Virus record (IMG/VR): IMGVR_UViG_3300030331_000673
Span: 1 to 29,645 of that record
Length of the DNA stretch: 29,645 nucleotides
Source: a virus
Direction: 5' to 3' (one strand)
A program made the translations under genes and the position numbers. Below are positions 1 to 19,727 of this stretch, piece after piece; position 1 is the first letter of the stretch, and each line of letters opens with the position of its first letter. A model generated the notes under the pieces. It was given only the letters and a program-made list of their open reading frames with translations, was not told the DNA's origin and ran no database searches.

Positions 1-1
1 A

Positions 2-1255
2 GTAAATTGGTCATCTGGTACAAGAACTATCTTTATGACATATCCTGCTGATAAAGCAGTTTTTGAAGATGCAGATGGTCATGTATCTATTCCACATGAT
101 TTGTTTATCGCAGGTGGTTTGATTGATCTTAAAAATGATGGAGGTGCTGTATCACAGATTAAGTTTTATTGTGAAAGCTCAAACGCTCATGCACAAACTC
201 TTATTGGAGCACCACACTCAGAGAGTGCGTCAAATACTTTAACACTACCTAGTTCTGGTGGTGATGCTAAATTAGTATCAGCAACATCAACTGCAACACT
301 TACAAACAAGACATTAACAACACCAACAATTAATGGTGCTACTATTGGTTCTGCTAATCTAGCTACTTCCAGTAATGGTGACATAAATTTTGCACCAAAT
401 GGCACAGGTAAGATTGTTGTAAGGGGTAATACTAATCAAGGTAAGATTGTACTTAACTGTGAAAGTAATAGTCACGGACAAACAATTATAGCTGCACCTC
501 ACTCTGAAAGTGCTAACAATGTTCTTACATTACCGAGTACAGGAGGTGATGCTCGTTTAGTTTCAACATCTTCAACAGCTACTTTAACAAACAAAACACT
601 AACTTCACCAAAGATAAATGAGGATGTAGCAGTCACATCTACTGCAACAGAATTAAATATTCTTGATGGTGTGACAGCTACCACAGCAGAGCTTAATATT
701 CTAGATGGGGTTACATCTACTACAGCAGAGCTTAATATCTTAGATGGCGTTACTTCTACAGCATCTGAACTTAATATCTTAGATGGAGTTACGTCCTCTA
801 CTTCAGAATTAAATATATTAGATGGTGTTACAGCAACCACATCAGAGTTAAATATATTGGATGGTGTGACCTCTACAACGGCAGAGCTAAACATTCTTGA
901 CGGAGTAACGGCTACAGCATCAGAGCTTAATATTATGGATGGGGTGACTTCCACAACAGCAGAGTTAAACATACTCGATGGTGTTACAGCCAGTGCTACA
1001 GATATTAATCTTATAGATGGTATTACAAATGGAACAGTAATAGCTAGTAAAGCTATTATAACAGATTCAAACAAAGATATTACTGGTGGTAGAAACATTA
1101 CTATAACAGGAGAACTCGATGCAGCAACACTTGATATATCTGGTGATGCTGACATAGACGGCACACTTGAAGCAGATGCGATTACTGTAAACGGAACAGC
1201 ATTAAACACAGTCATTGCTGACGAAGCAACAGCATTAGCAATAGCGTTAGGATAA
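2..1255 (+). CDS. Tail fibre/structural protein with ten 13-residue repeats (5' end probably outside window)
   Basis: The reading frame is open from base 2. The first ATG is at 35, but the codons before it (VNWSSGTRTIF) read smoothly into the protein, so the true start is probably upstream of the window. Counting from the ATG, two similar blocks (about residues 45-100 and 135-195) share the APHSESA, LTLPS and TATLTNKTLT motifs. Residues 206-335 are ten tandem units of the type ELNILDGVTxTTA. The tail contains SKAIITDSNKDI and a threonine/aspartate-rich beta-type sequence. There are no enzyme motifs. Known family: this repeat is common in phage fibres, and the repeats are probably shaft-forming beta structure (inference). 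The same C-terminal module follows a single repeat unit in the fibre at 7220-8656. It stands first in a run of fibre genes. Confidence 0.8.
   Translation, partial: VNWSSGTRTIFMTYPADKAVFEDADGHVSIPHDLFIAGGLIDLKNDGGAVSQIKFYCESSNAHAQTLIGAPHSESASNTLTLPSSGGDAKLVSATSTATLTNKTLTTPTINGATIGSANLATSSNGDINFAPNGTGKIVVRGNTNQGKIVLNCESNSHGQTIIAAPHSESANNVLTLPSTGGDARLVSTSSTATLTNKTLTSPKINEDVAVTSTATELNILDGVTATTAELNILDGVTSTTAELNILDGVTSTASELNILDGVTSSTSELNILDGVTATTSELNILDGVTSTTAELNILDGVTATASELNIMDGVTSTTAELNILDGVTASATDINLIDGITNGTVIASKAIITDSNKDITGGRNITITGELDAATLDISGDADIDGTLEADAITVNGTALNTVIADEATALAIALG
650..1039 (+). repeat. Tandem array of ten 39-bp (13-aa) units
   Basis: Units start at 650, 689, 728, 767, 806, 845, 884, 923, 962 and 1001, exactly 39 bases apart and in frame. 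Nine encode ELNI(L/M)DGVT plus a four-residue T/S/A linker. The tenth is a variant, DINLIDGIT. Synonymous codons differ from unit to unit (Leu as ctt, cta, tta, ttg or ctc; Gly as ggt, ggg, ggc or gga), so protein identity is much higher than DNA identity. Confidence 0.95.
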
Positions 1256-1258
1256 GAT

Positions 1259-1606
1259 ATGGCAAATACATTTAAGGTAGTTACAAAAGCAGGAGTGACA
1301 TCGGAAGATATAATTTACACTGTGGCAAGTTCAACAACTACAGTTATATTAGGTTTAGTTTTAGGTAACACAACAACAAGTCAAACAACTGCAACAGTTA
1401 CACTGTCGTCAAATACAGGAAATAGAGCAGGTGGTAATGATGAAGCAAACCAAGATGTAGAGTTAATTACAAATGCACCAATTCCAGCAGGATCGTCATT
1501 GGAGATGTTAGCAGGAAATAAAGTTGTTATGGAAACAACAGACTTACTAAAAGTTACAGGAAGTGGTGCAACAGATGTTTGTCTATCTATTATGGAGATC
1601 ACTTAA
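1259..1606 (+). CDS. Small virion protein of the MANT(F/Y)K type
   Basis: A 115-aa protein rich in Thr, Val and Ala, with alternating hydrophobic residues typical of a beta sandwich and no catalytic motif. It starts MANTFKVVTKAG and ends CLSIMEIT. Its opening, length and ending (LHLVVSYLEIS) resemble the 107-aa protein at 11683-12006, so the two look like paralogues. An AGGATAAG sequence just before the ATG serves as ribosome site, and the stop overlaps the next start (TAATG at 1604-1608). It is probably a small tail or fibre-attachment component, judged from position only. Confidence 0.6.
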   Translation: MANTFKVVTKAGVTSEDIIYTVASSTTTVILGLVLGNTTTSQTTATVTLSSNTGNRAGGNDEANQDVELITNAPIPAGSSLEMLAGNKVVMETTDLLKVTGSGATDVCLSIMEIT

Positions 1607-2685
1607 TGCCATATTTAGGTAACACACCTTCAACAAGTTTTGCGACAGTAGTCAAAGATAGTTTTAATGGTGGTAGCACAGCATATACTTTATCTAAAGT
1701 TGCTACGACTAACTCTGTATCCGTGTTTGTTGAGAACGTAAGACAAGAGCCTACATCAGCTTATTCAGTCAGTGGTACAACTTTAACATTTACTGCTACT
1801 ACACCTTCAGGTACAGGTAACATCTACGTTCTTCACATGAACCCAACAACAACGACTACACATCCTGCGGCACAAAACCTTACAGCCGTAGATGGTACGT
1901 TTACAGGCAACATAGACGTAGATGGCACGGCTAACTTAGATGTTGTAGATATTGATGGTGCAGTAGACATGGCTAGTACATTAGCTGTTACAGGTGCAAC
2001 TACATTAAGTGGTGGTGTTAGTGGTGATTTAACTGTAGATAGTGGTGTTTTAGCAGTTGATGCAACTAATAATAAAATTAGGTATACACAAGGCACAAAC
2101 AAAGGTCTTGTTATTCAAGATGCTGGTATAGCAGATACTACTGAAATAAACTTTGGAACTTCTGGCGAAGGAATAAGGGCTGGTTTAATTACTGGTTCAA
2201 ATCTATCTTTTTACACTGGTACTGCTGGTGGTGGTTCAGCATCAAAGAAAATGGAAATTGATACTTCTGGTAGAGTAATGAAACCTTCACAACCGGGATT
2301 TATGATTGGATTAAGTGGTGGTCATATTACATCTGGTGGTAATACAGTAATATTCAATAATAGCTATTTTAACGAAGGTAGTCATTACAATACTTCTACT
2401 GGAGTATTTACTGCTCCTGTTGCTGGAACTTATATATTTCATGCTTTTTTATTATTGCAGAATGACCGATCTATTGGCGATTATTATTGGTCATTTACAT
2501 ACAATGGCAGTGCTTTAGCTTATTGTTATCAAAATAATTTTGTAGCAAATAAACACGTTCATTATTCAAATGCTATTATTTATAAAATGAGTGCTAGTGA
2601 CACCATGCAAGTATATAACCATAATGCCACTTGGTATGGTATTTCTGCTTTGCATGGTCAATTTCATGGATATTTATTAGGATAA
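1606..2685 (+). CDS. Tail fibre with C-terminal C1q-like domain
   Basis: A 359-aa protein. An ATG 27 bases upstream is in frame, but the start at 1606 is preferred: it overlaps the previous stop and gives MPYLGNTP, matching the MPYIG opening of the fibre at 3966. The N-terminal 85 residues are probably a virion-attachment module. The middle is a Gly/Asp/Val repeat-like shaft (NIDVDGTANLDVVDIDG). Residues about 230-359 carry the C1q/TNF jelly-roll signature: GSHYNTSTGVFTAPVAGTY, then alternating aromatic strands and a closing LHGQFHGYLLG. C1q heads are trimeric binding domains that some phages use as receptor-binding tips. Fibre role confident; exact ligand unknown. Confidence 0.82.
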   Translation: MPYLGNTPSTSFATVVKDSFNGGSTAYTLSKVATTNSVSVFVENVRQEPTSAYSVSGTTLTFTATTPSGTGNIYVLHMNPTTTTTHPAAQNLTAVDGTFTGNIDVDGTANLDVVDIDGAVDMASTLAVTGATTLSGGVSGDLTVDSGVLAVDATNNKIRYTQGTNKGLVIQDAGIADTTEINFGTSGEGIRAGLITGSNLSFYTGTAGGGSASKKMEIDTSGRVMKPSQPGFMIGLSGGHITSGGNTVIFNNSYFNEGSHYNTSTGVFTAPVAGTYIFHAFLLLQNDRSIGDYYWSFTYNGSALAYCYQNNFVANKHVHYSNAIIYKMSASDTMQVYNHNATWYGISALHGQFHGYLLG

Positions 2686-2694
2686 GGAGAAAAA

Positions 2695-2961
2695 ATGGCA
2701 GATTATACAGTAAAATTAACAGACGCAGAGGATAAGGCTATGTCTTACTGTGCTATGTCTACTCAAGATTGGGTAGATAATGCTCTAAAGAACAGAGCAA
2801 GAATAGCTAAAGAAGAAATTATTAGTCTTAACACAGCACATTGTAATGCTAATAGTATTCAAATAGCCACTGGCGAAGATGCACAAGTTGCACAAGCGTT
2901 TACTTTAAAGGTTGTAAAGACAGCTAAAGAACGTGAAGAAGAATTAAAGTTACCTGAGTAG
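2695..2961 (+). CDS. Small conserved phage protein between fibre genes
   Basis: An 88-aa protein with a good AAGGAG ribosome site about 6 bases before the ATG. It begins MADYTVKLTDAEDKAMSY, followed by a probably helical, charged central segment (DNALKNRARIAKEEI), and ends AKEREEELKLPE. There is no signal peptide, membrane segment or recognisable catalytic motif. Proteins of this size and style sit next to fibre genes in marine phages. It could be a fibre assembly partner or a minor virion protein, but nothing in the sequence decides this. Confidence 0.6.
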   Translation: MADYTVKLTDAEDKAMSYCAMSTQDWVDNALKNRARIAKEEIISLNTAHCNANSIQIATGEDAQVAQAFTLKVVKTAKEREEELKLPE

Positions 2962-2968
2962 GATAAAC

Positions 2969-3664
2969 ATGGCACTATCAAAGATAAACACAAACAGTAT
3001 AGCAGATGATGCAGTAACAACTGCAAAGGTAAATCCAGCACAGACTGATATAACGAGTGTTGGTACATTAACAAGTTTTAGAAGCACAGGAATAGATGAC
3101 AATGCTGATGCTTTAGCTATGACTATTGATAGTAATGAAAATGTTGGAATAGGTACAGCAAGTCCTTCTGATCCTCTTCATGTAAAAGGGTTTGCTCAAA
3201 TTGAAGGTAAATCTGGTGATGGTAATTATTTAAGAATGGATAATACTGCAAACACGAATGGTAAAATATGGAGAGTTGGAAGTGGTGTCTATGAACACCC
3301 AACTTTTAGTATTTATGACCAAACAAATAATGTATTCCCATTTAATTTAAGAAATTACAACAACGCTTGTGAAATAAAAAGTGCAACTGCAATTACACTA
3401 GCAGATGATGGTGAATTATTTATTGCAGCTAATTGTCAAGGTCTTTTAGTTTTATCTTCATATAGTGAAGGAATAACTGGGTTTTTTAGATGCGAGTATT
3501 TAAATGTTGCTCAATTAGTTTCAGGCACAGGTACATTTTCTACTGGAGATACCGATGGTAAAATTTGTGTGATTGTCGGCAGCAATTCTTATTCAATTAA
3601 AATTAAAAATAGAATGGGTGGTTCAAGAGATTTAAGAGCCATTTTTGTAGGCACTCATACATAA
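2969..3664 (+). CDS. Tail fibre-type structural protein
   Basis: A 231-aa protein. The N-terminal part MALSKINTNSIADDAVTTAKV is a stretch often seen at the start of phage fibre proteins. Residues about 50-75 contain the NVGIGTASPSDPLHVKG module that recurs in marine phage fibres. The rest is rich in Asn, Gly, Thr and aromatic residues and looks beta-structured, ending in a compact hydrophobic segment that may be the tip. A GTAGGAT sequence precedes the start. It lacks an S74 or C1q domain, so how it folds or trimerises is unknown. Confidence 0.7.
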   Translation: MALSKINTNSIADDAVTTAKVNPAQTDITSVGTLTSFRSTGIDDNADALAMTIDSNENVGIGTASPSDPLHVKGFAQIEGKSGDGNYLRMDNTANTNGKIWRVGSGVYEHPTFSIYDQTNNVFPFNLRNYNNACEIKSATAITLADDGELFIAANCQGLLVLSSYSEGITGFFRCEYLNVAQLVSGTGTFSTGDTDGKICVIVGSNSYSIKIKNRMGGSRDLRAIFVGTHT

Positions 3665-3674
3665 AGGAAAAGTT

Positions 3675-3962
3675 ATGACATTAAGTATAAAAGTAGAAAA
3701 TTTTGAACAACAAAAAGTTGATAATAATAACACTGTTACAGAAAGTGGCACACTAAAACAAAGCGTTACATTAAAAGCAATAGACTCAGATATTGAAGGT
3801 ATGTATGTAGCAACTAAATGGTTGACTATAGATAGCAGTAAATCTGATGATGATTACGTTAAAGAAGCCTATGATGCTATTAAAGATGACATTACAGCTT
3901 GGCAAAATTCAAAGAAAAACATAGGTAAAACATTTAATCCTGACACAGGAAAGATGGAATAA
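3675..3962 (+). CDS. Small unknown protein of the fibre region
   Basis: A 95-aa acidic protein starting MTLSIKVENFEQQKVDNNN, with an AAAGGAA ribosome site. The first half is probably beta (SGTLKQSVTLKAIDSDIEGMYVATKW); the second half is helical and charged, and it ends GKTFNPDTGKME. No known motif. It lies between two fibre genes, as the small protein at 2695 does, suggesting a fibre-plus-partner arrangement. Function unassigned. Confidence 0.55.
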   Translation: MTLSIKVENFEQQKVDNNNTVTESGTLKQSVTLKAIDSDIEGMYVATKWLTIDSSKSDDDYVKEAYDAIKDDITAWQNSKKNIGKTFNPDTGKME

Positions 3963-3965
3963 CAT

Positions 3966-5228
3966 ATGCCATACATAGGAAGATCAACAGACGGATTTGG
4001 AGTACGAAATAGGTTCGTATACTTAGCATCAAGTGGTGCTACATCCGTAAGTGGAGCAGATGCCAATGGTGCTACTCTAACATTTACAGATGGTGCATAC
4101 GTTGACGTGTATCTCAATGGTGTTCTACTAAAACCAACAACAGACTACAACACAAGCACTGCTAACACGATAGCAGGTCTATCAGCACTCAATACAAATG
4201 ATGAAGTGACTGTGGTGGTCTATGATGTCTTTACTGTTGCTGACATGGTAAGTGCTACAAGTGGTGGTACGTTTGTTGGGAATGTTACGTTTGATGGCAC
4301 AGTAACAAATAACTCGACTACAGCCTTGAAAGAAGATGTTGTTTTTCATGGTAGCAATTATAATGTTACTTGGGATAAATCAGACAGTGCATTAGAGTTT
4401 GGTGACAATGCTAAATTAACTTTTGGTTCTGGTAATGATTTACGAATATATCATACACCAGGCACTGGTTCATTTATAGATGAGGCTGATGATGGCTCTT
4501 TATTCATAAGAAGTAGCCGAGTAACCATACACAAGTACACTGGCGAAACTATGATAAATGCTGTAGCTGATGGTGCAGTAACTCTTTCCTATAATGACAA
4601 TCAAAGATTTGCAACAACTGACCTTGGGTTTGATATAATAAATGGGGGTACAAGTTTTGGAAGTTTTGAATTAACTAACTCAGATAATTTAACCATTGAT
4701 TGTAATAGCACTGACCATGCAGGATTAACATTTGGAACAGCAGAGATATTTCCTAGAAAAAATGCAGCAAATTCTGATGATGGTGTGGATTTAGGTGCAG
4801 CATCTATACGTTTTGATGATATTCATGCAACCAATGGTACAATACAAACTTCAGACCAAAACGAAAAACAAGATATAGCAAGTGCAACAGCTAAAGAACT
4901 TAATGTAGCAAAAAAACTATCTAGCTTATTTAAAACATTTAGATGGAAGAGTAAAGTTGCAGAAAAAGGTGATAATGCTAGAATACATACAGGCATCATA
5001 GCACAAGAAATACAATCTGCGTTTAGTGCAGAAGGATTAGATGCATCCAAGTATGGGCTGTTTACATCACATACATGGTGGGAAAAAGATAAAGAGGTAT
5101 ACAATATAGAAAAAGAAGCACCTTCTGATGCAATTAAAAGAACTAGACTAGGTGTAAGATACCCAGAGCTATTTTCTTTTATTTTCTCATCTATAGAAGC
5201 ACGACTTACAGCATTGGAGAGTAAATAA
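3966..5228 (+). CDS. Tail fibre with self-cleaving S74 chaperone domain
   Basis: A 420-aa protein. Residues 1-90 (MPYIGRSTDGFG...) are an attachment-type module like that of the gene at 1606. The middle carries a DLRIYHTPGTGSFIDE...GETMINAVADGA module shared with the fibre at 7220. The C-terminal 125 residues are a Peptidase_S74 intramolecular chaperone: S296-D297 and K301 match the catalytic Ser and the Lys five residues later (as Ser911/Lys916 in K1F endosialidase), followed by HTGIIAQEIQ and a C-terminal helix RLTALESK. In this family the domain trimerises the fibre, then cuts itself off just before the Ser. The usual Arg after SDx is Asn299 here. The stop overlaps the next start. Confidence 0.87.
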   Translation: MPYIGRSTDGFGVRNRFVYLASSGATSVSGADANGATLTFTDGAYVDVYLNGVLLKPTTDYNTSTANTIAGLSALNTNDEVTVVVYDVFTVADMVSATSGGTFVGNVTFDGTVTNNSTTALKEDVVFHGSNYNVTWDKSDSALEFGDNAKLTFGSGNDLRIYHTPGTGSFIDEADDGSLFIRSSRVTIHKYTGETMINAVADGAVTLSYNDNQRFATTDLGFDIINGGTSFGSFELTNSDNLTIDCNSTDHAGLTFGTAEIFPRKNAANSDDGVDLGAASIRFDDIHATNGTIQTSDQNEKQDIASATAKELNVAKKLSSLFKTFRWKSKVAEKGDNARIHTGIIAQEIQSAFSAEGLDASKYGLFTSHTWWEKDKEVYNIEKEAPSDAIKRTRLGVRYPELFSFIFSSIEARLTALESK

Positions 5229-6307
5229 TGAGCCGAGCAAGAACATTCGCAGATTTAGCTACAGCATCTGAAGAGGGTAGTTTAAGTAAGCGTAACATGA
5301 TTATTAATGGTGACATGGCTGTTGCACAAAGAGCAACAAGTGCTACAAATAAATCAGCAAGTGGATACTATACTTGTGATAGATGGTCTTATGTACATAG
5401 TGGAGATGGTGCTGTTGATTTTGCACAAAGCACAGTTGTTACACCTACAGAGTTCAACAATGCTTTAAAAATTGAAGTTAGAACAGCAGATGGTTCTTTA
5501 GGTGCAACAGATGTTTCAGGTTTAAGACATTATATAGAAGCACAAAATTGCCAAAAACTACTGTATGGTACATCAAGTGCAAAATCGGTTACTCTTTCTT
5601 TTCATGTGCGTTCTAAACAAACAGGAACATATGCTGTAAATTTATTTCAAGATGATGACACAAGACAGTTTACTAAAACTTACACAATTAATTCTGCTGA
5701 TACTTTTGAAAAAAAGACAATTACCTTTGTTGGAGATACAACAGGAGTAATAGATGTAAATAATGGAAAAGGTATAGAAATAACATGGTGGTTAAGAGCA
5801 GGTAGCACTTACACAGGTGGTGATGCAATGTCTGGTTATGAAGCATTTAGTAATGGTGATTATGCAGTAGGACACGCTGTAGATTTTTTAAGTAGCACTT
5901 CAAATGAGTTTTATTTAACAGGTGTTCAACTAGAAATAGGTGATGTTGCGACACCTTTTGAACATGAAAGTTATGGAGATAATTTAAAACGCTGTAAAAG
6001 ATACTTTATTAGGTATAATAATAGTGGTAATTATGCTATAGGTGCTGCTGAAGATGGCACAAGAGGAATATTTGCTTTTCCTGCTCCAGATATGAGAGCA
6101 GCACCAACAGGAACTCAAGGTACTCTAACATTAGGTGGTGGTATTGGTTCTCCTCCTGCCGTTACAGCAATTTCATCTGTAACTAATTCAGGACATGGAT
6201 TAGATTTGCTTCTTACTGTTGGTTCAGGATTGACTGCAAAAGATGCTCTTAGAATTAGGGCAACAGATACGGCATCTTTTCTCGCATTTGATGCAGAATT
6301 ATCATAG
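5228..6307 (+). CDS. Tail spike/fibre protein with probable carbohydrate-binding fold
   Basis: A 359-aa protein. After a leader (MSRARTFADLATASEEGSLS) it has the marker sequence KRNMIINGDMAVAQRATS followed by TCDRWSY, then a beta-sandwich region (KSVTLSFHVRSKQTGTYAV) and the marker LTGVQLEIGDVATPFEHES, about residues 20-245. These markers recur in marine phage and prophage tail proteins and look like a galactose-binding or CBM-like jelly roll. Residues 250-359, after RCKRYF, are a variable C-terminal tip. No glycosidase motif was recognised, so binding is more likely than cleavage. The start codon overlaps the preceding stop. Confidence 0.75.
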   Translation: MSRARTFADLATASEEGSLSKRNMIINGDMAVAQRATSATNKSASGYYTCDRWSYVHSGDGAVDFAQSTVVTPTEFNNALKIEVRTADGSLGATDVSGLRHYIEAQNCQKLLYGTSSAKSVTLSFHVRSKQTGTYAVNLFQDDDTRQFTKTYTINSADTFEKKTITFVGDTTGVIDVNNGKGIEITWWLRAGSTYTGGDAMSGYEAFSNGDYAVGHAVDFLSSTSNEFYLTGVQLEIGDVATPFEHESYGDNLKRCKRYFIRYNNSGNYAIGAAEDGTRGIFAFPAPDMRAAPTGTQGTLTLGGGIGSPPAVTAISSVTNSGHGLDLLLTVGSGLTAKDALRIRATDTASFLAFDAELS

Positions 6308-6318
6308 GGAAATTTAAT

Positions 6319-6528
6319 ATGAATATAACATCAGCTAAATATTTAAAAAATTTAGAAGACCAAAATTCTATCGTTAAGATTGTTGTAGATGGAGAAACTT
6401 TATTTGTTCCAATAGACCCAAATAAAGTAAACAGCGAAGGTACTATAACTTATGTAGGCAACATACATTACGCTGAAATCAAACGACAAGTTGATGCAGG
6501 TGAACTAACAATAGAGGATGCAGACTAA
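6319..6528 (+). CDS. Small fibre-associated protein
   Basis: A 69-aa protein, MNITSAKYLKNLEDQNSIV, with central strands (VDGETLFVPIDPNKV) and an ending HYAEIKRQVDAGELTIEDAD that I recognise as a recurring C terminus of small proteins downstream of marine phage tail-fibre genes. An AGGGAAA ribosome site lies about 8 bases upstream of the start. Its stop (TAA) overlaps the next ATG. Function unknown; a chaperone or minor tail role would fit the position. Confidence 0.6.
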   Translation: MNITSAKYLKNLEDQNSIVKIVVDGETLFVPIDPNKVNSEGTITYVGNIHYAEIKRQVDAGELTIEDAD

Positions 6529-6728
6529 TGGACAACGTAATAAATATAAACGGCAAGAATCATAATATTGATACTATGTCCGACCAACAAAAGTATTTAA
6601 TAAAACAAATAAGAGCTTTGACAGCAGAAGAAGAAAGATTGTCGTTTCAACTTGATCCGATCCGTGTTGCTAAAAACTCTTATACAACTGCGTTGATACA
6701 ATCATTAGAAGAAAAAAAGGCTAGTTAA
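6528..6728 (+). CDS. Small coiled-coil protein, DUF6447-like
   Basis: A 66-aa protein. It opens MDNVININGKNHNIDTMSDQQKYL, followed by one long charged helix (IKQIRALTAEEERLSFQLD) likely to form a coiled coil, and ends EEKKAS. The ININGK-then-helix layout is that of the DUF6447 small phage proteins; this is recalled from the pattern, not searched. Start and stop both overlap the neighbours by one base, so translation is coupled. Role unknown. Confidence 0.6.
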   Translation: MDNVININGKNHNIDTMSDQQKYLIKQIRALTAEEERLSFQLDPIRVAKNSYTTALIQSLEEKKAS

Positions 6729-7210
6729 TGTTAGGTCATGTCGCCCTTTCTGAAACACCGATCAGTAGTATAAGTAAAATACTCGAAGGTAACGCAGAGA
6801 TGAGTGGCATTGCTTCTAAAGCATCTGCTGGTATCGGTATACTGGTAGGTGTTGCAGATATATCTGCTATCTTTGTAGAAGAGGTAGAAGGTGCTGCTGT
6901 ACCAGATATACCAGTGACAAGTATGAGTTTTAACTTTGGGTTAGATGATATACCTGGTCGTTTTGTTAAGGGTACAGAGCTTGAGACAGATATAGAGTTT
7001 TTAGCCGAACAATCTACGGCTGGTAATGCTACATTAACTGGTGTATCAACACAAGATTTTAATTTAACACAGACAGCTACTGGTGAATTATTATTTACAG
7101 AAATCGTTCCGAGTGTTACTGTGACTTACACAGAGATCACGCATACAGGTGATAATTGGACAGAGATTACTCACACAGGCGACACTTGGACAGATGTGAG
7201 TACAAATTAG
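6728..7210 (+). CDS. Unknown structural-region protein
   Basis: A 160-aa protein. It begins MLGHVALSETPIS, has an Ala/Ile/Gly-rich stretch (ASAGIGILVGVADISAIFV, about residues 33-51) that is probably buried rather than transmembrane, then a Thr-rich beta region. It ends with two near-identical units, TEITHTGDNW and TEITHTGDTW (about residues 135-155). Similar MLG-starting proteins occur beside tail genes in marine phages. A minor virion protein is likely from context; the function is unknown. Confidence 0.55.
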   Translation: MLGHVALSETPISSISKILEGNAEMSGIASKASAGIGILVGVADISAIFVEEVEGAAVPDIPVTSMSFNFGLDDIPGRFVKGTELETDIEFLAEQSTAGNATLTGVSTQDFNLTQTATGELLFTEIVPSVTVTYTEITHTGDNWTEITHTGDTWTDVSTN

Positions 7211-7219
7211 GAGTTATAG

Positions 7220-8656
7220 ATGGCGAGTTCGTATACAGCAAATAACGGCATAGAAAAGATTGGTACAGGCGAACAAGCAGGTACTTGGGGTGCAACAACC
7301 AATACAAACTTTGATATTCTTGACAGAGCTATAAATGGTGTAGGTGCGATTACCTTATCTGGTACAACACATACGCTGACAACGACAGATGGTGCGTTGT
7401 CCGATGGTCACTTTAAAGTATTAGTTTTTGGTGGCACTTTAAGTTCTACAAACACCATTACCATATCACCTAATGATCAAGACAAACTGTACTTTGTATT
7501 TAACAATACCTCTGGTAGTCAATCTATAATAATTAAACAAGGTAGTGGTGCAACTGTAACTGTAGGCAATGGTAAGACTGCTATTGTATATGCAGATGGT
7601 GCAGGGTCTGGTGCGGCAGTTGCACAGATAGAAACTGGATCAGACGAGTTCACAGAAGATGTAACCATGAAAACTGGTGATGGTGCTTTGTTAACCTTAC
7701 AGACATCTGATACGACTGTTACTGATGGTGATGTACTTGGTGCATTACAGTTTCAAGCACCGAATGAAAGCAGTGGTACAGATGCTATAACAGTTGCTGC
7801 ATCTATTGTGGCTGAAGCAGATGCAGAGTTTACAGCCTCTGTTAATAAAACAGACATGGTGTTTAAGTTAGGTAGTTCTGAAGCTGCAACAGAAAAGATG
7901 AGACTAACACATGAAGGTATTTTATCTATACCTGCTGATGGTAGTATTACTGCTAATCATTTTTCAGTAGGCACTGGTGCAGATTTAAAAATATATCATG
8001 ATGGCTCAGACTCGTATGTTGATGATACTGGAACTGGAAATTTAAATTTAAAAGGAAGTATTGTTCAGCTTTTATCAACTGGTGGTGAAGCTATGATAAA
8101 AGCAACCACAGATGGTGCGGCAGAATTATATCACGATGGCACTAAAAAAATAGAAACAACATCTGCTGGAACAACAGTATCTGGTGTTGTAACTGCGACA
8201 GGCTTCACAATAGGAAGTGCAGTTATTGCAGAGTCTGAATTAGAACAAATAGATGGAATAACAGCAGGTACTGTAGCTGCATCAAAAGCAGTTGTTGTTG
8301 ATAGCAATAAAGACATTAGTGGTTTTAGAAACATATCTAACACTGGTACAATTACGACAGGTGGTGCAATAACTGCTAGTGGTGATATTACAGCTTTTTC
8401 AGATGAGAGATTAAAATCAGATATAGAAACAATAGATAACGCTTTGGATAAAGTTATGAATATGCGTGGCGTTTCATATACAAAACAAGCTGAAAAAGGT
8501 ATTGGTGTTATTGCTCAAGAGGTAGAAAAAGTATTACCAGAGGTTGTAACAGATGGTGAATATAAGTCTGTTGCGTATGGCAACATAGTTGGTGTTTTAA
8601 TAGAAGCAATCAAAGAGCAACAAAAACAAATTAATGAATTAAAGAAAGATAAGTAA
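7220..8656 (+). CDS. Tail fibre with S74 chaperone domain
   Basis: A 478-aa protein with an AGGAG ribosome site. The N-terminal section (MASSYTANNGIEKIGTGEQ, AGTWGATTNTNFDILDRAI) is a fibre opening often seen in marine phages. The central module DLKIYHDGSDSYVDDTG...GGEAMIKATTDGAAELYHDG parallels the fibre at 3966. A single ELEQIDGITAGTV unit followed by SKAVVVDSNKDI matches the end of the repeat array in the first gene. The C terminus is Peptidase_S74: S394-D395-x-R397-x-K399, GIGVIAQEVEKVLPEVV, YKSVAYGNIVGVLIEAI, and a final helix. Both catalytic residues and the Arg are present. It should trimerise and shed the chaperone. Confidence 0.88.
   Translation: MASSYTANNGIEKIGTGEQAGTWGATTNTNFDILDRAINGVGAITLSGTTHTLTTTDGALSDGHFKVLVFGGTLSSTNTITISPNDQDKLYFVFNNTSGSQSIIIKQGSGATVTVGNGKTAIVYADGAGSGAAVAQIETGSDEFTEDVTMKTGDGALLTLQTSDTTVTDGDVLGALQFQAPNESSGTDAITVAASIVAEADAEFTASVNKTDMVFKLGSSEAATEKMRLTHEGILSIPADGSITANHFSVGTGADLKIYHDGSDSYVDDTGTGNLNLKGSIVQLLSTGGEAMIKATTDGAAELYHDGTKKIETTSAGTTVSGVVTATGFTIGSAVIAESELEQIDGITAGTVAASKAVVVDSNKDISGFRNISNTGTITTGGAITASGDITAFSDERLKSDIETIDNALDKVMNMRGVSYTKQAEKGIGVIAQEVEKVLPEVVTDGEYKSVAYGNIVGVLIEAIKEQQKQINELKKDK
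8237..8275 (+). repeat. Single-copy homologue of the 13-aa fibre repeat
   Basis: It encodes ELEQIDGITAGTV, directly followed by AASKAVVVDSNKDISGFRNI. It aligns with the last unit of the ten-copy array (DINLIDGITNGTV plus IASKAIITDSNKDITGGRNI), so the same module exists here with one repeat. Confidence 0.8.
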
Positions 8657-8658
8657 AT

Positions 8659-9405
8659 ATGGCTCTTCAGAGTAGTGGTGCAATAAGTATGAGCGATATA
8701 CGTTCAGAGATTGGCACATCTGGTGCTATATCTATGAGTGACTTGTATAGAGTAAATACAAGTAGTGAATTTCCAACAGAAAAAGAAATAACTGATGCAA
8801 TATCATCTATAAGCTATAGTGGTGTATCTGGTGCTACTCTTGGATATAGTAATAGATATATGTATGGTGATTTATCGACATATAGTGGTGGTTTAGGTGC
8901 AGGTGGTATTTATGCTTATGGTTTTCTTTATAATGGAAGATCTTCAACATCTAGTATAAATGCAGAAACTTACATTTTTAACACTGGTACTAATGGTGCA
9001 AGTTATACCTCTGATTGTATATTTGAACATCACGGAACAAGTAAAAGTGGACAGACGCTTACAGAAACTACAACTTTAACTATGGGTAAAGCAGGCACTT
9101 ATTATGTGTGGGGATACTCTTTAAATCTTGGTCAACTAGGAATTGAGGTTGATACAGGAAGTGGTTTTTCTACAGTGTATAGTTTAGCACAACAATCAAC
9201 TACTAGCACTTCAAGATACACTTTTAACGCATCTGTAGGTCATAAATTAAGATTAACATTAAAAGGAATTGGAGAAGAAATTATTAGATACGTTAGAGTT
9301 AGCACAAGTAGTAGTAGTGACTTTGATAAGACCATAACTGTAAACTCTGGTGTTCCGTCATCTGGTGCTATATCTTTTTCTGATTTATATGGAGCAGAAG
9401 GATAA
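8659..9405 (+). CDS. Structural/fibre protein with three SGAIS(M/F)SDL motifs
   Basis: A 248-aa protein, very rich in Ser, Thr, Gly and Tyr. Two copies of the motif lie at the N terminus (SGAISMSDIRSEIG and SGAISMSDLYRVN, about residues 6-33) and one at the C terminus (SGAISFSDLYGAEG). The GxISxxDI motif recurs at the start of phage fibre-region proteins and may be a small docking element (inference). The middle (residues about 50-220) looks like a beta-rich adhesin. Its ribosome site is weak, so reinitiation from the S74 fibre two bases upstream is likely. The stop overlaps the next ATG. Confidence 0.65.
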   Translation: MALQSSGAISMSDIRSEIGTSGAISMSDLYRVNTSSEFPTEKEITDAISSISYSGVSGATLGYSNRYMYGDLSTYSGGLGAGGIYAYGFLYNGRSSTSSINAETYIFNTGTNGASYTSDCIFEHHGTSKSGQTLTETTTLTMGKAGTYYVWGYSLNLGQLGIEVDTGSGFSTVYSLAQQSTTSTSRYTFNASVGHKLRLTLKGIGEEIIRYVRVSTSSSSDFDKTITVNSGVPSSGAISFSDLYGAEG

Positions 9406-11525
9406 TGCCACTGACTAAACTACAATTTAAACCAGGTATAAACAGAGAGATTACAAAGTACAGCAACGAAGGTGGTTGGGTTGACTGTGATAAGATACGT
9501 TTTCGTTTTGGCTATCCAGAGAAGTTTGGGGGTTGGGAAAAATTAACTAGCAATGAATACGAAGGTACAGCAAGACGTTTACACAACTGGTTAGCTCTTG
9601 ATGGATCAAACTTTCTTGGTGTTGGTACGCATCTTAAATACTATATAGAAGAAGGTGGTACATTTAATGACATAACACCAATTCGTGCATCAACAACAAA
9701 CTCTACAACTTTCTCAGCCACAAATGGTTCTACAAATATAACTGTTACAGAGACTAATCATGGTGCGGCAGAGAATGATTTTGTTACATTTAGCAATGCT
9801 GTGAGTTTAGGTGGTAATGTTACAGCGGCTATACTTAATGCAGAACATCAGATTGTATCTGTAACTAATGCAAATACTTATGTTATTACAGTTAGTGTAA
9901 CTGCTAATGCTTCTGACAGTGGTAATGGTGGCAGTGCAACAGATGCCGAGTATCAAATAACTGTTGGTCTTGACTCACAAGTTGGTGGTACAGGTTGGGG
10001 TGCTGGATTGTTTGGTGGTACAACAGCAGGTGCTTTGACAACCACTTTAGCCGAAGATTTAGACAACAGTGAAACAGGTGTTGATGTAGCAGACGAAACG
10101 GGAATAACAACAGATAATGATGTTATATTAGTTGGTGAAGAACTTATGCTTGTAACAGCAACAACTGATGATAATACCTTAACTGTTACGAGAGGACATA
10201 GTGGCACAACAGCAACCACACACTCAAATGGAGCAATTGTTCGGCTTGCTGTAGGTAATGCGTCATCTGATGATGACTTTACTGGTTGGGGTATAGCAGC
10301 AGTAAGTGGTACAACTCGTGAAATACGAACATGGTCACATGACAACTTTGGTGAAGATTTATTAATTAATCCTAGAGATGGTCAAGTTTTTCGTTGGGAT
10401 AAAACTAATGGTCTGTCAACAAGAGCAGTAGAACTTAGCACTATATCTGGTGCAGAAAATGTGCCTACCATAGCAAAACAAATACTTGTTAGCGATCAAG
10501 GTCATGTATTTGCATTTGGTGCTAATACTTATGCAACAACAACACAAGACCCATTGTTAGTTAGATTTTCATCTTTTGACAATCCACTCGTTTACACTGT
10601 GTCTGCAACAACAAGTGCAGGATTTTTAAGTATTGGTTCAGGTTCTGAGTTTGTACAAGCTGTCAAAACAAAACGTGAAATACTTGTTTTTACTGATATT
10701 TCTTTACATACACTTAGATATTTAGGTGCACCATTATACTATGGTATAGAGCAAATAGCATCTAATATAACAATCATGGGGCCGCAAGCAGCTGTTGCTA
10801 CACAAGATTTTGTATTTTGGATGGGTAAAGATAATTTCTACGTATATGCGGGTGGAACGCAAACCTTACCTTGTACTGTCAAAGACAAAGTATTTCTTGA
10901 TTTTAATAGTCAACAAGCAGACAAAGTTATTGCAGGCGTTAATTCTGAATATACAGAAGTTATATGGTTTTATCCGTCTGAGTCTAATTCACTTAACAAT
11001 GGTGGCACGGGCGACATAGATAAATATGTTGTATATAACTATGGTCAAAAAATATGGTACTTTGGCACATTAGCTAGAACTGCTTGGTTAGACAGAGGTA
11101 TTCGAACATTTCCTATAGCTGCTGGAACTCCTAATTTATTTAATCACGAAACAGGATATGATGATGATGGTTCTGCCATGACATCATTTATTGAGTCAGC
11201 ACCAATGGATATAGGTGATGGTGATAAATTTAGTTTAATACAAAAAGTTATACCTGACTTGACATTTGAAGGTTCTGTTAATCAAAGCACACCTGCGGCT
11301 AACTTTACAATCAAAGCAAGAAATGAGCCTGGTGAGGACTATGGCAACACATCTAGTGGCACTGCAACAAGAACTGCTACATCACCTGTAGAATTATTTA
11401 CCAATCAAATAGACTTACGGGCAAGAGGACGTTCATTTGCTTTGCGTGTGGACTCAAGTGCAACAGGTATGAAATGGAAACTTGGTACGCCTAGAGTTAA
11501 CATTAGACCAGATGGGAGAAGATAA
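9405..11525 (+). CDS. Large virion structural protein, tail nozzle/hub candidate
   Basis: A 706-aa protein beginning MPLTKLQFKPGINREITKY, then GGWVDCDKIRFRFGYPEKFGGW, a conserved opening of a large structural protein of marine podovirus-like phages. The rest is beta-rich with repeated aromatic Gly-Trp strands (LHNWLALDGSNFLGVGTH, WGIAAVSGTTREIRTWS, FVFWMGKDNFYVYAGG) suggesting a beta-propeller. Residues about 90-160 and 200-285 are Thr-rich inserts. Length and position, just before the internal virion proteins, fit a tail nozzle (T7 gp12-type) or a P22 gp10-type stabilisation protein. I cannot choose between them by sequence alone. Confidence 0.7.
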   Translation: MPLTKLQFKPGINREITKYSNEGGWVDCDKIRFRFGYPEKFGGWEKLTSNEYEGTARRLHNWLALDGSNFLGVGTHLKYYIEEGGTFNDITPIRASTTNSTTFSATNGSTNITVTETNHGAAENDFVTFSNAVSLGGNVTAAILNAEHQIVSVTNANTYVITVSVTANASDSGNGGSATDAEYQITVGLDSQVGGTGWGAGLFGGTTAGALTTTLAEDLDNSETGVDVADETGITTDNDVILVGEELMLVTATTDDNTLTVTRGHSGTTATTHSNGAIVRLAVGNASSDDDFTGWGIAAVSGTTREIRTWSHDNFGEDLLINPRDGQVFRWDKTNGLSTRAVELSTISGAENVPTIAKQILVSDQGHVFAFGANTYATTTQDPLLVRFSSFDNPLVYTVSATTSAGFLSIGSGSEFVQAVKTKREILVFTDISLHTLRYLGAPLYYGIEQIASNITIMGPQAAVATQDFVFWMGKDNFYVYAGGTQTLPCTVKDKVFLDFNSQQADKVIAGVNSEYTEVIWFYPSESNSLNNGGTGDIDKYVVYNYGQKIWYFGTLARTAWLDRGIRTFPIAAGTPNLFNHETGYDDDGSAMTSFIESAPMDIGDGDKFSLIQKVIPDLTFEGSVNQSTPAANFTIKARNEPGEDYGNTSSGTATRTATSPVELFTNQIDLRARGRSFALRVDSSATGMKWKLGTPRVNIRPDGRR

Positions 11526-11683
11526 TGTCAGTTGTTATACCTCCTAGATTACCAGAGCCACCCGAACAAATTGATAGACAATATGTAGAAGATTTGATAA
11601 GAGCGTTAGAATTGTTTATATCTCAACAGACAACAAGCACAGTTGAAGATGATGCACAAGCATTTGGTTGGTTTACAGGATAA
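11525..11683 (+). CDS. Small 52-aa protein in the structural operon
   Basis: Starts MSVVIPPRLPEPPEQIDRQY, then a helix (VEDLIRALELFISQQ) and an ending AFGWFTG. The ATG overlaps the preceding stop (TAATG) and its own stop overlaps the next ATG (TAATG at 11681-11685), so it is translationally coupled on both sides. This, and the Pro-rich head plus amphipathic helix, supports a real gene despite its size. Possibly a minor structural or connector protein; function unknown. Confidence 0.65.
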   Translation: MSVVIPPRLPEPPEQIDRQYVEDLIRALELFISQQTTSTVEDDAQAFGWFTG

Positions 11684-12006
11684 TGGCTAATACATACAAA
11701 AATGCAAAGGTAGATTTAACAACAACAAATGCAACAACTGTGTTGACAACACCTGTTGGCTCTACAAATATTATAAAATCAATGCTTGTATCAGAAGATA
11801 GTGGAAATGCTGATACAATTACATTAACTATTACAGATACAGATAATGCAGTGTTTAGTTTGTTTAAAGTAAAGGCTGTTAGTGCAAATACAACAGTTGA
11901 ATTGTTGACACAACCATTAGTGTTACAAGACTCTGAAATATTAAAAGCGACAGCAGCTACAGCTAATCGTTTACATTTGGTTGTAAGTTATTTAGAAATA
12001 AGTTAG
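11683..12006 (+). CDS. Small virion protein, paralogue of the 1259 gene
   Basis: A 107-aa protein, MANTYKNAKVDLTTTNATTV, rich in Thr and Val with a beta-sandwich pattern, ending LHLVVSYLEIS. An upstream in-frame ATG at 11668 is rejected because the 11683 start overlaps the preceding stop and gives the MANT opening shared with the protein at 1259-1606. The location next to the nozzle and ejection proteins suggests a tail or adaptor component. No catalytic features. Confidence 0.65.
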   Translation: MANTYKNAKVDLTTTNATTVLTTPVGSTNIIKSMLVSEDSGNADTITLTITDTDNAVFSLFKVKAVSANTTVELLTQPLVLQDSEILKATAATANRLHLVVSYLEIS

Positions 12007-12015
12007 GATAAGAGC

Positions 12016-12795
12016 ATGGGTTTAGGTGACGTATTAAAAAAGGTTGTTTTACCAGTAGCTGCTGGAGCTTTTTTGGGAGCACCAGTTGCTGGTGCAATGA
12101 AAGGTTTAGGTCTAGGTAAACTTGCCGCTAATCCTTTTATTGCTAATGCTTTAGCCAGTGGTTTAGGTAGCATTGTTGCAGGAGGAGATACTAAAGATGC
12201 TTTACGATCTGCACTATTAGGTGGTGTGGGCGGTACTTTTGCACAAAGAAAATTTCCAAAATTAACAGGTCAAACAACACCACAATCAGTGTTTTCCGCA
12301 AATCAAATTGATCCAGATAGTACAAAAACTATCACTAGAAAACCAATAGATGCTGCAAAGAAATTTGAACCAGCAACCATGTCAGGACAATTAGCACAAC
12401 AATTAGGATTTGAAGATAGTTTAATCGGTAATTTGTTAAACACGAAATTAGGTGAGGGTCTTGCTGCAGGATTGTTAACACAGTTACTTTCTGATGATGA
12501 GGATGAAGATTCACGTACTGCTTTTGAACGTAGACCTTTTGGATTCGGTGGCCCTGGCGGACAAATTGGTGGAATAAATTATATGCAACAAGGTGGTGAG
12601 ATGGATTTTCCTAGACGCGATGGCGGCATAGACCCATCAGAGGGATCAGGAACAAAAGATGATGTGCCAGCTATGTTGACTGCTGGTGAATTTGTTTTAA
12701 CTAAAGATGCTGTTAAAGGTTTAGGTAACGGCAATCAAAGACTTGGCATACAAAGAGCATATGATATGATGGGTCAATTAGAGAGGATGGCATAA
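12016..12795 (+). CDS. Internal virion/tail-associated protein with conserved phage C-terminal motif
   Basis: A 259-aa protein. Residues 1-75 are Gly/Ala/Leu-rich and amphipathic (VVLPVAAGAFLGAPVAGAM, GLGLGKLAANPF), consistent with membrane-interacting ejection proteins. An acidic patch DDEDED lies near residue 160. Residues about 195-245 hold the conserved block MDFPRRDGGIDPSEGSGTKD, then DVPAMLTAGEFVLTKDAVKG, known from many phage virion proteins. AGGAT precedes the start and the stop overlaps the next ATG. It opens a block of four genes that looks like an ejection module. Confidence 0.68.
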   Translation: MGLGDVLKKVVLPVAAGAFLGAPVAGAMKGLGLGKLAANPFIANALASGLGSIVAGGDTKDALRSALLGGVGGTFAQRKFPKLTGQTTPQSVFSANQIDPDSTKTITRKPIDAAKKFEPATMSGQLAQQLGFEDSLIGNLLNTKLGEGLAAGLLTQLLSDDEDEDSRTAFERRPFGFGGPGGQIGGINYMQQGGEMDFPRRDGGIDPSEGSGTKDDVPAMLTAGEFVLTKDAVKGLGNGNQRLGIQRAYDMMGQLERMA

Positions 12796-13850
12796 TGGCA
12801 GTTCAAACAGTTGAACAGGTAAAACGCTTACCACCTTATCTCGAAGGTTTACAAAAACGTCTTTTATCCAGTTTATATGGCACGTTTGATGGTGCAACTC
12901 AGACACAAAAAGGTTTATTAGATAAAAAACTAGATTTACCTGCTTTTCAAGTAGCTGGATTGGACCCTTTACAGCAAATGGCTTTTGCATATGCTCCACA
13001 AATGTTCGGGTCTTTTGCACCATTTACGCAAAGTGGTTTAGGTCAAATTGGTGCTGGTGCTAATGCTTTAGGTCAAGGACAAGCGACATTAGGTGCAGCA
13101 TTATCACCTATAGGTGCGGCTGGAACTGCAATATCTAGGGGCATAGGACAGTTAGCTGATCCAACAGCAGGTATGCAAAAGTTTTTTGATCCTTTTCAAG
13201 AACAAGTTATTAAACAAGCAGAAAAAGATATTGAGAGAGATGCAAATTTACGAAGTCAAAAATTATTAAGTGATTTACAAGGTCGAGGTCAAGGCATCGG
13301 TTCAGGTCAAAGAAGTGGTCGTAGTGCTGTATTAGAAGCAGAACTTGCAAGAAACACAGCAGATCAAAAGGCAAGAACATTAAGTGGGTTACGATCTGGT
13401 GGTTTTCAACAGGCCATGAAAAACTTTCTTGGCTCTACAGAATTGATGGGCGGTCTTGGTAGTAGATTAGGAGAGGTAGGTAGTCGTTTTGGAGATATTG
13501 GTGGAAAATTTGGCGTTTTGGGTGATGTTTATAATCGTCTCGCTGGTACTACTGGAGATTTAGGACGACTCACATCAGAGTTAGGTCGTGCTGATTTAAC
13601 AAATTTAGTTAATTTAGGTGGAATAGGAAGAGCTTTTCAACAAGAAGGACTTGATGCTAATAGACAAAATATTTTACAGGGTATTATGGAGCCTTACACA
13701 AGGTTACAATTAGGATCACAATTCTTGTCAGGTATGCCTAGTGCTTCAATACCATCAATATTTAAATCTGTTACAACACCAGAGCCTAACCCATTTATGT
13801 CTGGCGTTGGTGCTTACACAGCCCTACAAAATGCAGGAGTAAGTGCATAA
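12795..13850 (+). CDS. Internal virion protein (ejection-type)
   Basis: A 351-aa protein. The N-terminal region MAVQTVEQVKRLPPYLEGLQ contains the PPYLEGLQKRLL block common in marine phage internal proteins. A Gly/Ala/Gln-rich region follows (residues about 75-125, with ALGQGQATLGAALSPIGAAG), then a long charged helix (QEQVIKQAEKDIERDANLRS) and heptad-like Gly/Leu repeats (GSRLGEVGSRFGDIGGKFG, about residues 220-245). No enzyme signature. By position and composition it resembles the small internal virion proteins that leave the capsid with the DNA. Confidence 0.62.
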   Translation: MAVQTVEQVKRLPPYLEGLQKRLLSSLYGTFDGATQTQKGLLDKKLDLPAFQVAGLDPLQQMAFAYAPQMFGSFAPFTQSGLGQIGAGANALGQGQATLGAALSPIGAAGTAISRGIGQLADPTAGMQKFFDPFQEQVIKQAEKDIERDANLRSQKLLSDLQGRGQGIGSGQRSGRSAVLEAELARNTADQKARTLSGLRSGGFQQAMKNFLGSTELMGGLGSRLGEVGSRFGDIGGKFGVLGDVYNRLAGTTGDLGRLTSELGRADLTNLVNLGGIGRAFQQEGLDANRQNILQGIMEPYTRLQLGSQFLSGMPSASIPSIFKSVTTPEPNPFMSGVGAYTALQNAGVSA

Positions 13851-15526
13851 TGGCTGAAGATAGTTTATTAAAATTTATTTTTCCAAAAGCTGATCCAAAA
13901 GGTATTCAACGTGGTTTAAATTTTGTTTTTCCAAAAGCAAATTTCGATTTTGCGGGAGAAGATACTGAAGAAATTATTGATGATAATGAAATAATAAAAC
14001 CACCTATGCCAGGTAAAAGTATAGATTTAAACTTAATACCAGATGAAATACAAGAAAAATTAAACTTGCTTTCAAATGTACCTATCCTAAAAAAGGAGGA
14101 TAAAACTGCAGAAAATGTAGTTACTTCAGATAATGTTGTAGATGATAATGTTGATGTTGATGACGGTGCTGATGATTCCGAACAAAGTTTAACTCCTACA
14201 ATGGAGGGATTTGAAGAGTTTACAGAACTACAAAAAGATAGTTTTAGACCTGATTTAGAGGGTGTTGATAAATATGATAAGGCTAGTCAAGATTTGTTTG
14301 ATAAATCTTTAAATGATTATGAAAATGTATTTAAAGGATCAATACCAACGATAGGTGATATAAAAGATTATAAACAAGAATTTTATGAAGCAACTGGTCT
14401 TGATCCATCAGGAAAACCAGATTTAAGAACTGCTGCTACAGCTTTCGGACTAGCTTTGATGCAAAATAAAGCAGGTAAAGGTTTTAATATTGGAAGAATA
14501 ATGGCTGAAATTGGAAAAGCTGGTGAAAAAGCTCTTCCATTAGCTGAAAAAGCAAGGCAACAAGCTAAAGCAGAAGAAATAGCTGCTGGTCGTTTTGCTT
14601 TGGGTGAGGTCGCAAAAGATAAAGCTGCAAGAAATACTGCCATACAAAATAAAATAAACGCCATGATTGAGTTACAAAAGGAAATGCGTAAACAATATGG
14701 TGAAAGAAATAAAGCTATACTTGATCATTATTTTAATACTCAAATAGAAACTTTAAAAGCAAATAAAGATATAACTAAGGCAGAAATTGAAGCTGGCAAA
14801 CCAGATAATGATTTAATTTTAGCAAGAATAGATACTCCTATATTAGGAATTGATAATATTAAAATTCAAACTGCAACTAGAAAAAATGATTTACAAAGAG
14901 TTTTTGTAAACCCAAGCTCAGATGTTATAAATCTTGCCAAAGGTTATACAGATACATTAGAAGCTGAAGCAAGTCTTGATAAAATTATAGGAATTTTAAA
15001 AGATTTGGGTAAGGGAAGTGGTTTTAGTGAACAAGTTTTAACTACGTATGATGAAATTGTAGTTGGGTTATTTGGTAAAAATTATTCTATTTTTCTGAAT
15101 GAAGATGGCGAAGTAGATAGAAGACTTAATAATGTAGAAGCGATAAAAGATAGAGTTATAGCTCAATATAAAAGATTTTTAACACAAGAAACAGGTAATG
15201 GTATTTCTAATCAAGACGTTGAAAGAATTAATACAGCACTTGGTGAATTAAAATTACTCACTGATCCAAATAAGATAGCTAAAAAAGTAAAAGAAACTAA
15301 AGAAATATTTTTGTCAAGAAGAGAAGCTCTTGGTCTTCAATTAAGAGATTTTCAAGACAGAGATATGTATTTAACTGAAAAAGAATATAGAAAAACAATT
15401 GAACAAATAGATAGACAATTAATAGCTAGTTTAGCAACAGAAGGAACTGTAAGCAAAAGTATTAAATTTGAGCCAATTTCAACAAGTGATGATGGTATTC
15501 CTTTATATAAAATACTAACAGGTTAA
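13850..15526 (+). CDS. Internal virion protein, 558 aa
   Basis: Starts MAEDSLLKFIFPKADPKG and repeats the F(I/V)FPKA(D/N) motif about 17 residues later. Residues about 40-120 are acidic and low-complexity (DDNVDVDDGADDSE). From about residue 150 the protein is Lys/Glu/Ala-rich and helical (GEKALPLAEKARQQAKAEEI), typical of the middle internal core protein of podoviruses (T7 gp15-like position). A catalytic centre is not visible. An AGGAG lies about 12 bases before the ATG, which overlaps the previous stop. Function inferred from order and composition. Confidence 0.62.
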   Translation: MAEDSLLKFIFPKADPKGIQRGLNFVFPKANFDFAGEDTEEIIDDNEIIKPPMPGKSIDLNLIPDEIQEKLNLLSNVPILKKEDKTAENVVTSDNVVDDNVDVDDGADDSEQSLTPTMEGFEEFTELQKDSFRPDLEGVDKYDKASQDLFDKSLNDYENVFKGSIPTIGDIKDYKQEFYEATGLDPSGKPDLRTAATAFGLALMQNKAGKGFNIGRIMAEIGKAGEKALPLAEKARQQAKAEEIAAGRFALGEVAKDKAARNTAIQNKINAMIELQKEMRKQYGERNKAILDHYFNTQIETLKANKDITKAEIEAGKPDNDLILARIDTPILGIDNIKIQTATRKNDLQRVFVNPSSDVINLAKGYTDTLEAEASLDKIIGILKDLGKGSGFSEQVLTTYDEIVVGLFGKNYSIFLNEDGEVDRRLNNVEAIKDRVIAQYKRFLTQETGNGISNQDVERINTALGELKLLTDPNKIAKKVKETKEIFLSRREALGLQLRDFQDRDMYLTEKEYRKTIEQIDRQLIASLATEGTVSKSIKFEPISTSDDGIPLYKILTG

Positions 15527-15527
15527 T

Positions 15528-19303: not shown

Positions 19304-19321
19304 ATACTTTATCCTTTCTTT

Positions 19322-19693: not shown

Positions 19694-19727
19694 TTGACAT
19701 TTTTGTGGGAAATTCCCATGTTATAAG
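19694..19727 (+). promoter_or_regulatory. Promoter with embedded palindrome before the replication operon
   Basis: TTGACA at 19694-19699 and an extended -10 TGT-TATAAG at 19719-19727. The spacer of 22 is long, so the extended -10 may act alone. The palindrome TGGGAA-A-TTCCCA occupies 19706-19718 between the two. The first ATG with a ribosome site is at 19754. The palindrome halves match those of the RHH operon site. Confidence 0.5.

Follow-up and report, generated by a model that had tools for sequence, protein, structure and literature searches.

Comparison with described tail fibers

According to the accessible text of PMC3909814, the T7-like tail fibers of marine podoviruses carry a repeat stretch after a conserved N-terminal domain and have a variable C-terminus, and pelagiphage tail fibers contain repeat stretches with C1q genes adjoining. 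The window analyzed here, a whole virus contig of 29,645 bases with tail-fiber, C1q, and S74 genes at its left, is similar to the fibers described there in having a repeat stretch within a fiber protein and a C1q gene adjacent to or near the fiber gene. It differs from that description in that a single 13-residue unit recurs across many contigs whose flanks differ, and in that the window end cuts the ORF and leaves the N-terminal domain out of view. As far as the accessible parts of PMC3909814 extend, the array is a further member of the repeat-bearing pelagiphage-type tail fibers and is ordinary in kind. The 13-residue unit is not given in those parts of PMC3909814 or in the accessible parts of PMC9004378, and literature searches on the peptide, on fiber repeats, and on repeat codons did not find it in titles or in the opening of abstracts, a weak negative because peptide strings seldom appear in running text.

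The unit also occurs in two annotated tail fibers. Octadecabacter Antarctic DB virus 2 gp12 (tail fiber protein) carries runs of four and two units in mid-protein, such as TATAAELNILDGV, and the gene following gp12 matches window positions 9405–11525 at 31%; unlike the window, it has fewer units, interrupted once and set between different domains. Pelagibacter phage HTVC033P gp66 (putative tail fiber protein) contains the units VTSTAAELNIVDG and VTATAAELNLLDG together with a segment, GELDAGSLDISGDADIDGTLEADAITVNG, that resembles the module following the array in the window, whereas its units are solo and form no tandem array. The occurrence of the unit in these two fibers corroborated the initial annotation, which had assigned the array to a fiber protein. 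Taken as a whole, the array is likely to be a repeat-built segment of a tail fiber, probably a trimeric shaft, whose units turn over by birth and death under strong protein constraint while their synonymous sites are saturated.

Organization of the array and its ORF

The array occupies positions 635–1024 of the plus strand and consists of ten 39-base units in a single frame without indels. As established by repeat finding and a unit table, the nine units at 635–985 follow the pattern T[SA][TS]xxELNI[LM]DGV (in full, T[SA][TS][AT][TAS]ELNI[LM]DGV), while the tenth, TASATDINLIDGI (986–1024), is a degenerate end unit. Tandem Repeats Finder (TRF) reported a period of 39 with 9.1 copies and a score of 246 at 635–988, together with the multiples 78 and 156. 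The ten-copy, 13-residue array placed at 650–1039 by the initial annotation was therefore real, being the identical ten units cut five codons later. Most of the variation among units was held by residues 2–5, and the E, N, D, and G residues of the ELNxLDG core were constant across units 1–9.

At the DNA level, units 1–9 were 73.4% identical on average (36 pairs), and of every 13 codons 4.4 were identical, 6.5 synonymous, and 2.1 non-synonymous, in agreement with the earlier description of units nearly identical in protein yet different in synonymous codons. Nei–Gojobori estimates for these units gave a pS of 0.72, which is near saturation, a pN of 0.10, and a dN/dS of approximately 0.05, which rose to 0.09 once unit 10 was added. 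These values indicated that the protein is held, as had been claimed, while synonymous sites are near saturation. Since the most alike pair, units 2 and 3, reached 87% identity, the array contains no recent duplicate unit. Units 1–9 resembled one another in their codons no more than random synonymous draws would, and adjacent units shared 4.63 identical codons, compared with 4.77 ± 0.61 by random draws. The variation being mostly synonymous, the array does not have the character of a diversity-generating retroelement target, and no reverse transcriptase was found among the subset of window ORFs scanned in this possibly incomplete record.

The array is carried by an ORF of at least 417 residues (2–1255, plus strand) that is open at the 5′ end of the window and was recognized as encoding a tail-fiber-like structural protein by the ORF list, PHROG, and tblastn. 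Its upstream region (2–634) contains two copies of the motif TLPSxGGDAxLVSxxSTATLTNKTLTxP, ends in SPKINEDVAV, and has homologues in the best 80 of at least 432 relatives. The array is succeeded up to the C-terminus by a follow-on module (1025–1252) starting with TNGTVIASKAIITDSNKDITGGRNITITGELDAATLDISGDADIDGTLEADAITVNG, defined from the sequence and from comparison of 3′ flanks; the 3′ flanks of 144 arrays, the window included, were similar in protein to this module. PHROG 29288 (unknown function) matched the ORF with an E-value of 2.4e-18 in three stretches, the best of which (residues 251–290) lies within the array, and further matches were to PHROGs 31104 and 30158 (unknown function) and 692 and 6002 (virion structural protein). 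By tblastn, 19 phage records were hit, annotated as hypothetical, tail fiber, structural, or baseplate wedge proteins. The array protein is presumably located in the virion. Truncation of the ORF at the 5′ side leaves its virion-attachment domain out of view; the visible part showed no N-terminal domain of that sort (PF03906 or similar), and Pfam gave no fiber domain above cut-off.

Occurrence and conservation of the unit among relatives

The sample comprised 364 loci, mostly IMG/VR phage contigs with some contigs duplicated, collected as three sets of the best 80 each and two sets of 120 and 15 stretches. Among the matches listed, at least 361 DNA-distinct arrays of 2–14 units (the window included) were found in 235 sequences; arrays with identical DNA were counted once, ahead of all comparisons, and a unit outside the search pattern ended a run. 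Clustering left 309 arrays, of which 201 had at least four units (1220 units). A locus end was touched by 16 of the 361 arrays, and by 12 of the 309 after clustering, so that these may have been cut.

The 309 arrays contain 1484 units, among which D11 and G12 were invariant, N8 varied once, and E was kept in 1440, even though the search pattern allowed other residues. The end unit of the window, TASATDINLIDGI, was the joint commonest last unit, closing 24 of the 201 arrays with at least four units in a tie with TSTAAELNILDGV. The window units had no identical match in the other arrays of the sample, the best matches having 2–5 differences. In a survey of cultured phages covering six loci, runs of 4 + 2 units were present in DB virus 2, 4 in Prochlorococcus phage P-RSP2, 3 in Synechococcus phage S-RIP2, and 2 in Roseobacter phage CRP-9, while HTVC033P and CRP-603, both annotated as having putative tail fibers, showed no unit run by the search pattern. 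The unit is thus recognizable in more than 200 loci and in isolates on Prochlorococcus, Synechococcus, roseobacters, Octadecabacter, and Pelagibacter, and still no Pfam or NCBIfam model matched the array ORF at cut-off.

Several arrays per fiber ORF were observed in loci such as L022, L049, L050, L054, and L061, some of them closely related. The distances between unit starts in multi-array ORFs recurred at 57, 73, 87–88, 124, 129, 152, and 244 residues, which suggests a small set of spacer modules. In addition, 24 arrays came from 15 genome-contig loci. Two-unit matches were present in these 15 contigs (L277–L291), which are binned with bacteria and archaea, including Patescibacteria, Pacearchaeota, and Omnitrophota, and these are perhaps phage sequence or misbinned contigs.

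Unit number differs between relatives

Among ortholog families whose flanks are at least 90% identical, 5 of 21 varied in unit number, as did 19 of 40 at a flank threshold of 80%; these shares are upper estimates, since dropping DNA-identical arrays removes pairs of equal number. The initial annotation had named an identical copy number among related phages as the result that would speak against it, and the relatives were found to differ. When 373 array pairs with both flanks aligned, which are not independent of one another, were ranked by flank identity, an equal unit number was seen in 8 of 8 (≥97%), 8 of 13 (90–97%), 37 of 106 (80–90%), and 46 of 246 (<80%). As the flank alignments had to come to 20 bases or less from either end of both arrays, a missed edge unit could not fake a difference in number. 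Matrices of unit comparisons for 14 such pairs showed units gained, lost, and replaced, and between L332 and L325 one unit recurs unchanged two places on. For the window itself, no array with both DNA flanks orthologous was present in the sample; both flanks were similar in protein in 14 other arrays, which had 2–8 units compared with 10 in the window.

The first and last units seem to be more constant than the inner ones, although the trend is weak. In 67 number-differing pairs (flanks ≥80%, at least three units), the first unit had the same amino acids in 48 and the last in 43, compared with 88 of 207 inner units at the same index, a comparison that penalizes inner units after an indel. Base differences averaged over 23 pairs were 5.6 for the first unit, 4.3 for the last, and 6.0 for the best match of inner units. 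The end units may perhaps be more constant because they meet the neighboring domains.

Origin of the scrambled codons

The initial annotation had offered two accounts of the codon scrambling, namely that the array is old or that it is selected against DNA identity; the former was borne out in the sense that a recent duplicate is lacking, and the latter, tested three ways, was unsupported. According to the selection account, scrambling is favored since recombination or slippage between identical units would alter the length of the fiber, and it draws weakly on two deficits: units 1–9 of the window share 4.36 of 13 codons compared with 4.88 ± 0.44 in random synonymous draws from window codon usage (z −1.2), and the pooled same-codon fraction is 0.449 compared with 0.456 ± 0.004 expected from flank codon usage. 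The 201 arrays, however, contained 35 near-identical unit pairs (at most 2 differences in 39 bases), 3.5 times the 10.0 ± 2.2 (maximum 17) obtained by within-column synonymous codon shuffles, and 20 of these pairs were adjacent, compared with 12.1 ± 2.6 when unit order was shuffled (maximum of 300 shuffles, 20). In simulations from flank and array codon usage, neighbors differed at fewer bases (10.24 vs. 10.70) and shared longer exact runs (9.59 vs. 8.60, z 9.5) than expected. Copy number, moreover, changes despite the scrambling, and thus selection against DNA identity is very unlikely to be at work. The excess of near-identical copies with some bias to neighbors, as left by tandem duplication, was statistically demonstrated and indicated that tandem duplication happens; the observations fit an occasional tandem duplication of units with later decay to saturation, and not an avoidance of identity. 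The near-identical pairs were confined to 27 of the 201 arrays. In the 148 arrays without close pairs, neighbors differed by 10.84 bases compared with 11.03 ± 0.06 in shuffled order. The mean codon identity of neighbors barely exceeded that of shuffled order (same-codon fraction 0.461 vs. 0.459 ± 0.004, with 30% of shuffles reaching 0.461), so that duplication is visible only in the tail of the distribution. The codon-usage nulls disagree in the mean, units appearing slightly less alike under the flank-only null and slightly more alike under the flank-plus-array null, and only the excess of near-identical pairs and that of long exact runs are clear. The scrambled codons look like ordinary old divergence rather than a special protection against slippage, and the synonymous saturation found here is a warning that scrambled codons in repeats require no special selection.

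Exchange of units between phages, by which arrays would serve as recombination joints and the codon mosaics would stem from imported diverged units, is a possibility to which we give appreciable weight while leaning against it. Synonymous divergence was higher in the array than in the flanks in 27 of 36 ortholog pairs, which are non-independent and were those used out of 53 same-number pairs (flanks ≥80%), the remainder having short or gapped flanks; this may reflect unit exchange rather than point mutation alone. By blastn, the 5′ flanks of L057/L104 and L098/L165 were 96–97% identical over 450 bases with no 3′ match, L043/L062 matched at the 3′ side (88% over 316 bases) and not at the 5′ side, and some one-flank pairs also shared a long exact stretch of the array. 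A gapped recheck of six pairs found three (L037/L085, L055/L106, and L092/L118) to be similar on both sides, though the other three stayed one-sided. In a joint test covering the 315 of 348 arrays with enough flank, upstream homology anchored at the 3′ side was lost across the array in 555 of 993 cases, compared with 304 of 1228 control gaps in the same ORFs, an excess implying that some 3′ modules occur behind a wide range of upstream sequences; with the anchor at the 5′ side, there was no excess (140 of 376 vs. 1086 of 2564 control gaps). The phage encodes annealing and exonuclease genes that would suit such exchange, but the tendency of near-identical units to be neighbors speaks for local duplication, and the window units were without an identical match among the other arrays sampled. 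It is less probable still that the pattern is one of ascertainment, in which short-read assembly breaks or collapses arrays of identical units so that mainly scrambled ones are seen, the short-read origin of the contigs being an assumption. Of 50 whole contigs (rows, among 80, whose locus was the entire contig), 5 had a unit run no more than 100 bases away from an end, compared with 1.97 ± 1.37 expected. Identical-like units do get assembled, however (no more than 2 differences in 39 of 4257 pairs), the window units differ enough for reliable assembly, and such a bias could skew the frequency of duplicates but not create the array.

Structural predictions and proposed function

Short repeats are known to form the layers of a trimeric fiber in the triple beta-spiral shaft of adenovirus, in which the repeat is 15 residues long, and trimeric heptad coiled coils are built from hydrophobic heptads without helix breakers. 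The array is similar to the adenovirus shaft in that short repeats would stack as layers of a trimeric shaft; it differs in repeat length and in its conserved positions, and had no PDB sequence match. With a period of 13, the array could be assigned neither to the triple beta-spiral nor, given the invariant D-G in every unit, to the heptad coiled coil. Tandem short repeats in a fiber protein, the characteristic of repeat-shaft tail fibers, are present both here and in DB virus 2 gp12.

The AlphaFold2 monomer model of positions 335–1252 had a mean pLDDT of 61 and no secondary structure in the array, while that of 635–1141 had a mean pLDDT of 54 and one helix of 5–8 residues per unit; the array blocks scored 46–69 across both models, and the C-terminal follow-on module was the best-modeled part of the ORF. 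No similar solved structure was found in PDB sequence searches (best E-value 0.33), fold matches reached 3.6 at best, and Foldseek against the PDB with the 335–1252 model returned nothing. Against BFVD, Foldseek with the 635–1141 model gave two matches with E-values below 0.001; the top three were 38–65% identical in sequence, and therefore probably carry the same repeat, and one is a 'Tail fiber protein' of an uncultured virus. The initial annotation had also named a predicted disordered region as a result that would speak against it, and the models demonstrate neither disorder nor its absence. The low pLDDT of the array in both models might be taken to indicate a flexible or disordered linker rather than a structured shaft. 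Monomer predictions for obligate trimers, however, often come out poor. Furthermore, the conservation across the 1484 units (D and G invariant, a single change at N, and E in 1440) and a dN/dS of approximately 0.06 are constraints that linkers rarely keep, and the spacing was 13, the other spacings listed (top four per ORF) being at least 26. A linker is accordingly rather improbable.

The units are arranged in tandem and in one frame, experience strong purifying selection, are saturated at synonymous sites, and differ in number between relatives. On the preferred reading of a shaft, the trimeric state, the fold, and fiber length as the selected trait are putative. The array would most likely form the part of a trimeric shaft between the virion-attached and distal domains, and each 13-residue unit would add one structural layer and so set the local length, a hypothesis that fits the period and the low-confidence helix. 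Units would be born by unequal or replicative recombination, for which the annealing protein and exonuclease of the phage itself may be responsible, and lost in the same manner; in the surviving units, synonymous sites would diverge until saturated, as selection acts on the protein alone. A broader proposal, that the array is an uncatalogued but widespread shaft block acting both as a length ruler with rapid birth and death of units and as a joint for module swapping among marine phages, driven by phage annealing recombinases, is put forward only speculatively, and we think it unlikely to hold as a whole. Since unit length is constant and unit number shifts among close relatives, such arrays amount to a natural experiment in how fiber length is tuned and receptor-binding parts are exchanged by phages.

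Genome context

Judging from its relatives, the contig apparently derives from a marine phage, and megablast of window positions 1–20000 against 50,697 phage records gave no match. A C1q gene and two S74 genes were identified near the array gene by Pfam. The former, at 1579–2685, is a fiber-like gene with a terminal C1q domain (Pfam E-value 2.3e-10) and stands near the array gene, an arrangement shared with pelagiphage host-recognition modules. At 7220–8656 (plus strand), a second fiber-like gene, identified from its ORF, Pfam, and alignment, encodes a C-terminal S74 chaperone and one solo degenerate unit, ESELEQIDGI; it matches the array ORF at 8102–8446, and a related module follows the solo unit. 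This solo-unit module, TAGTVAASKAVVVDSNKDISGFRNI, resembles the post-array module and is possibly an ancestral single-unit form. Another tandem repeat, of 30 bases and 2.2 copies (7130–7194, TEITHTGDxW), lies at the C-terminus of the ORF at 6728–7210.

The fiber genes are followed by genes for endolysin-like, Holliday resolvase-like, Sak4-like annealing, helicase, Cas4/RecE-like exonuclease, and primase proteins. The Holliday-junction resolvase-like protein (19322–19693), the Sak4-like annealing protein (20176–21036), and the Cas4/RecE-like exonuclease (24277–25062) constitute a recombination set that could drive the turnover of repeats. The five best phage matches of the primase/helicase-like protein at 25128–27290 were Wolbachia phage records, at 38–43% identity.
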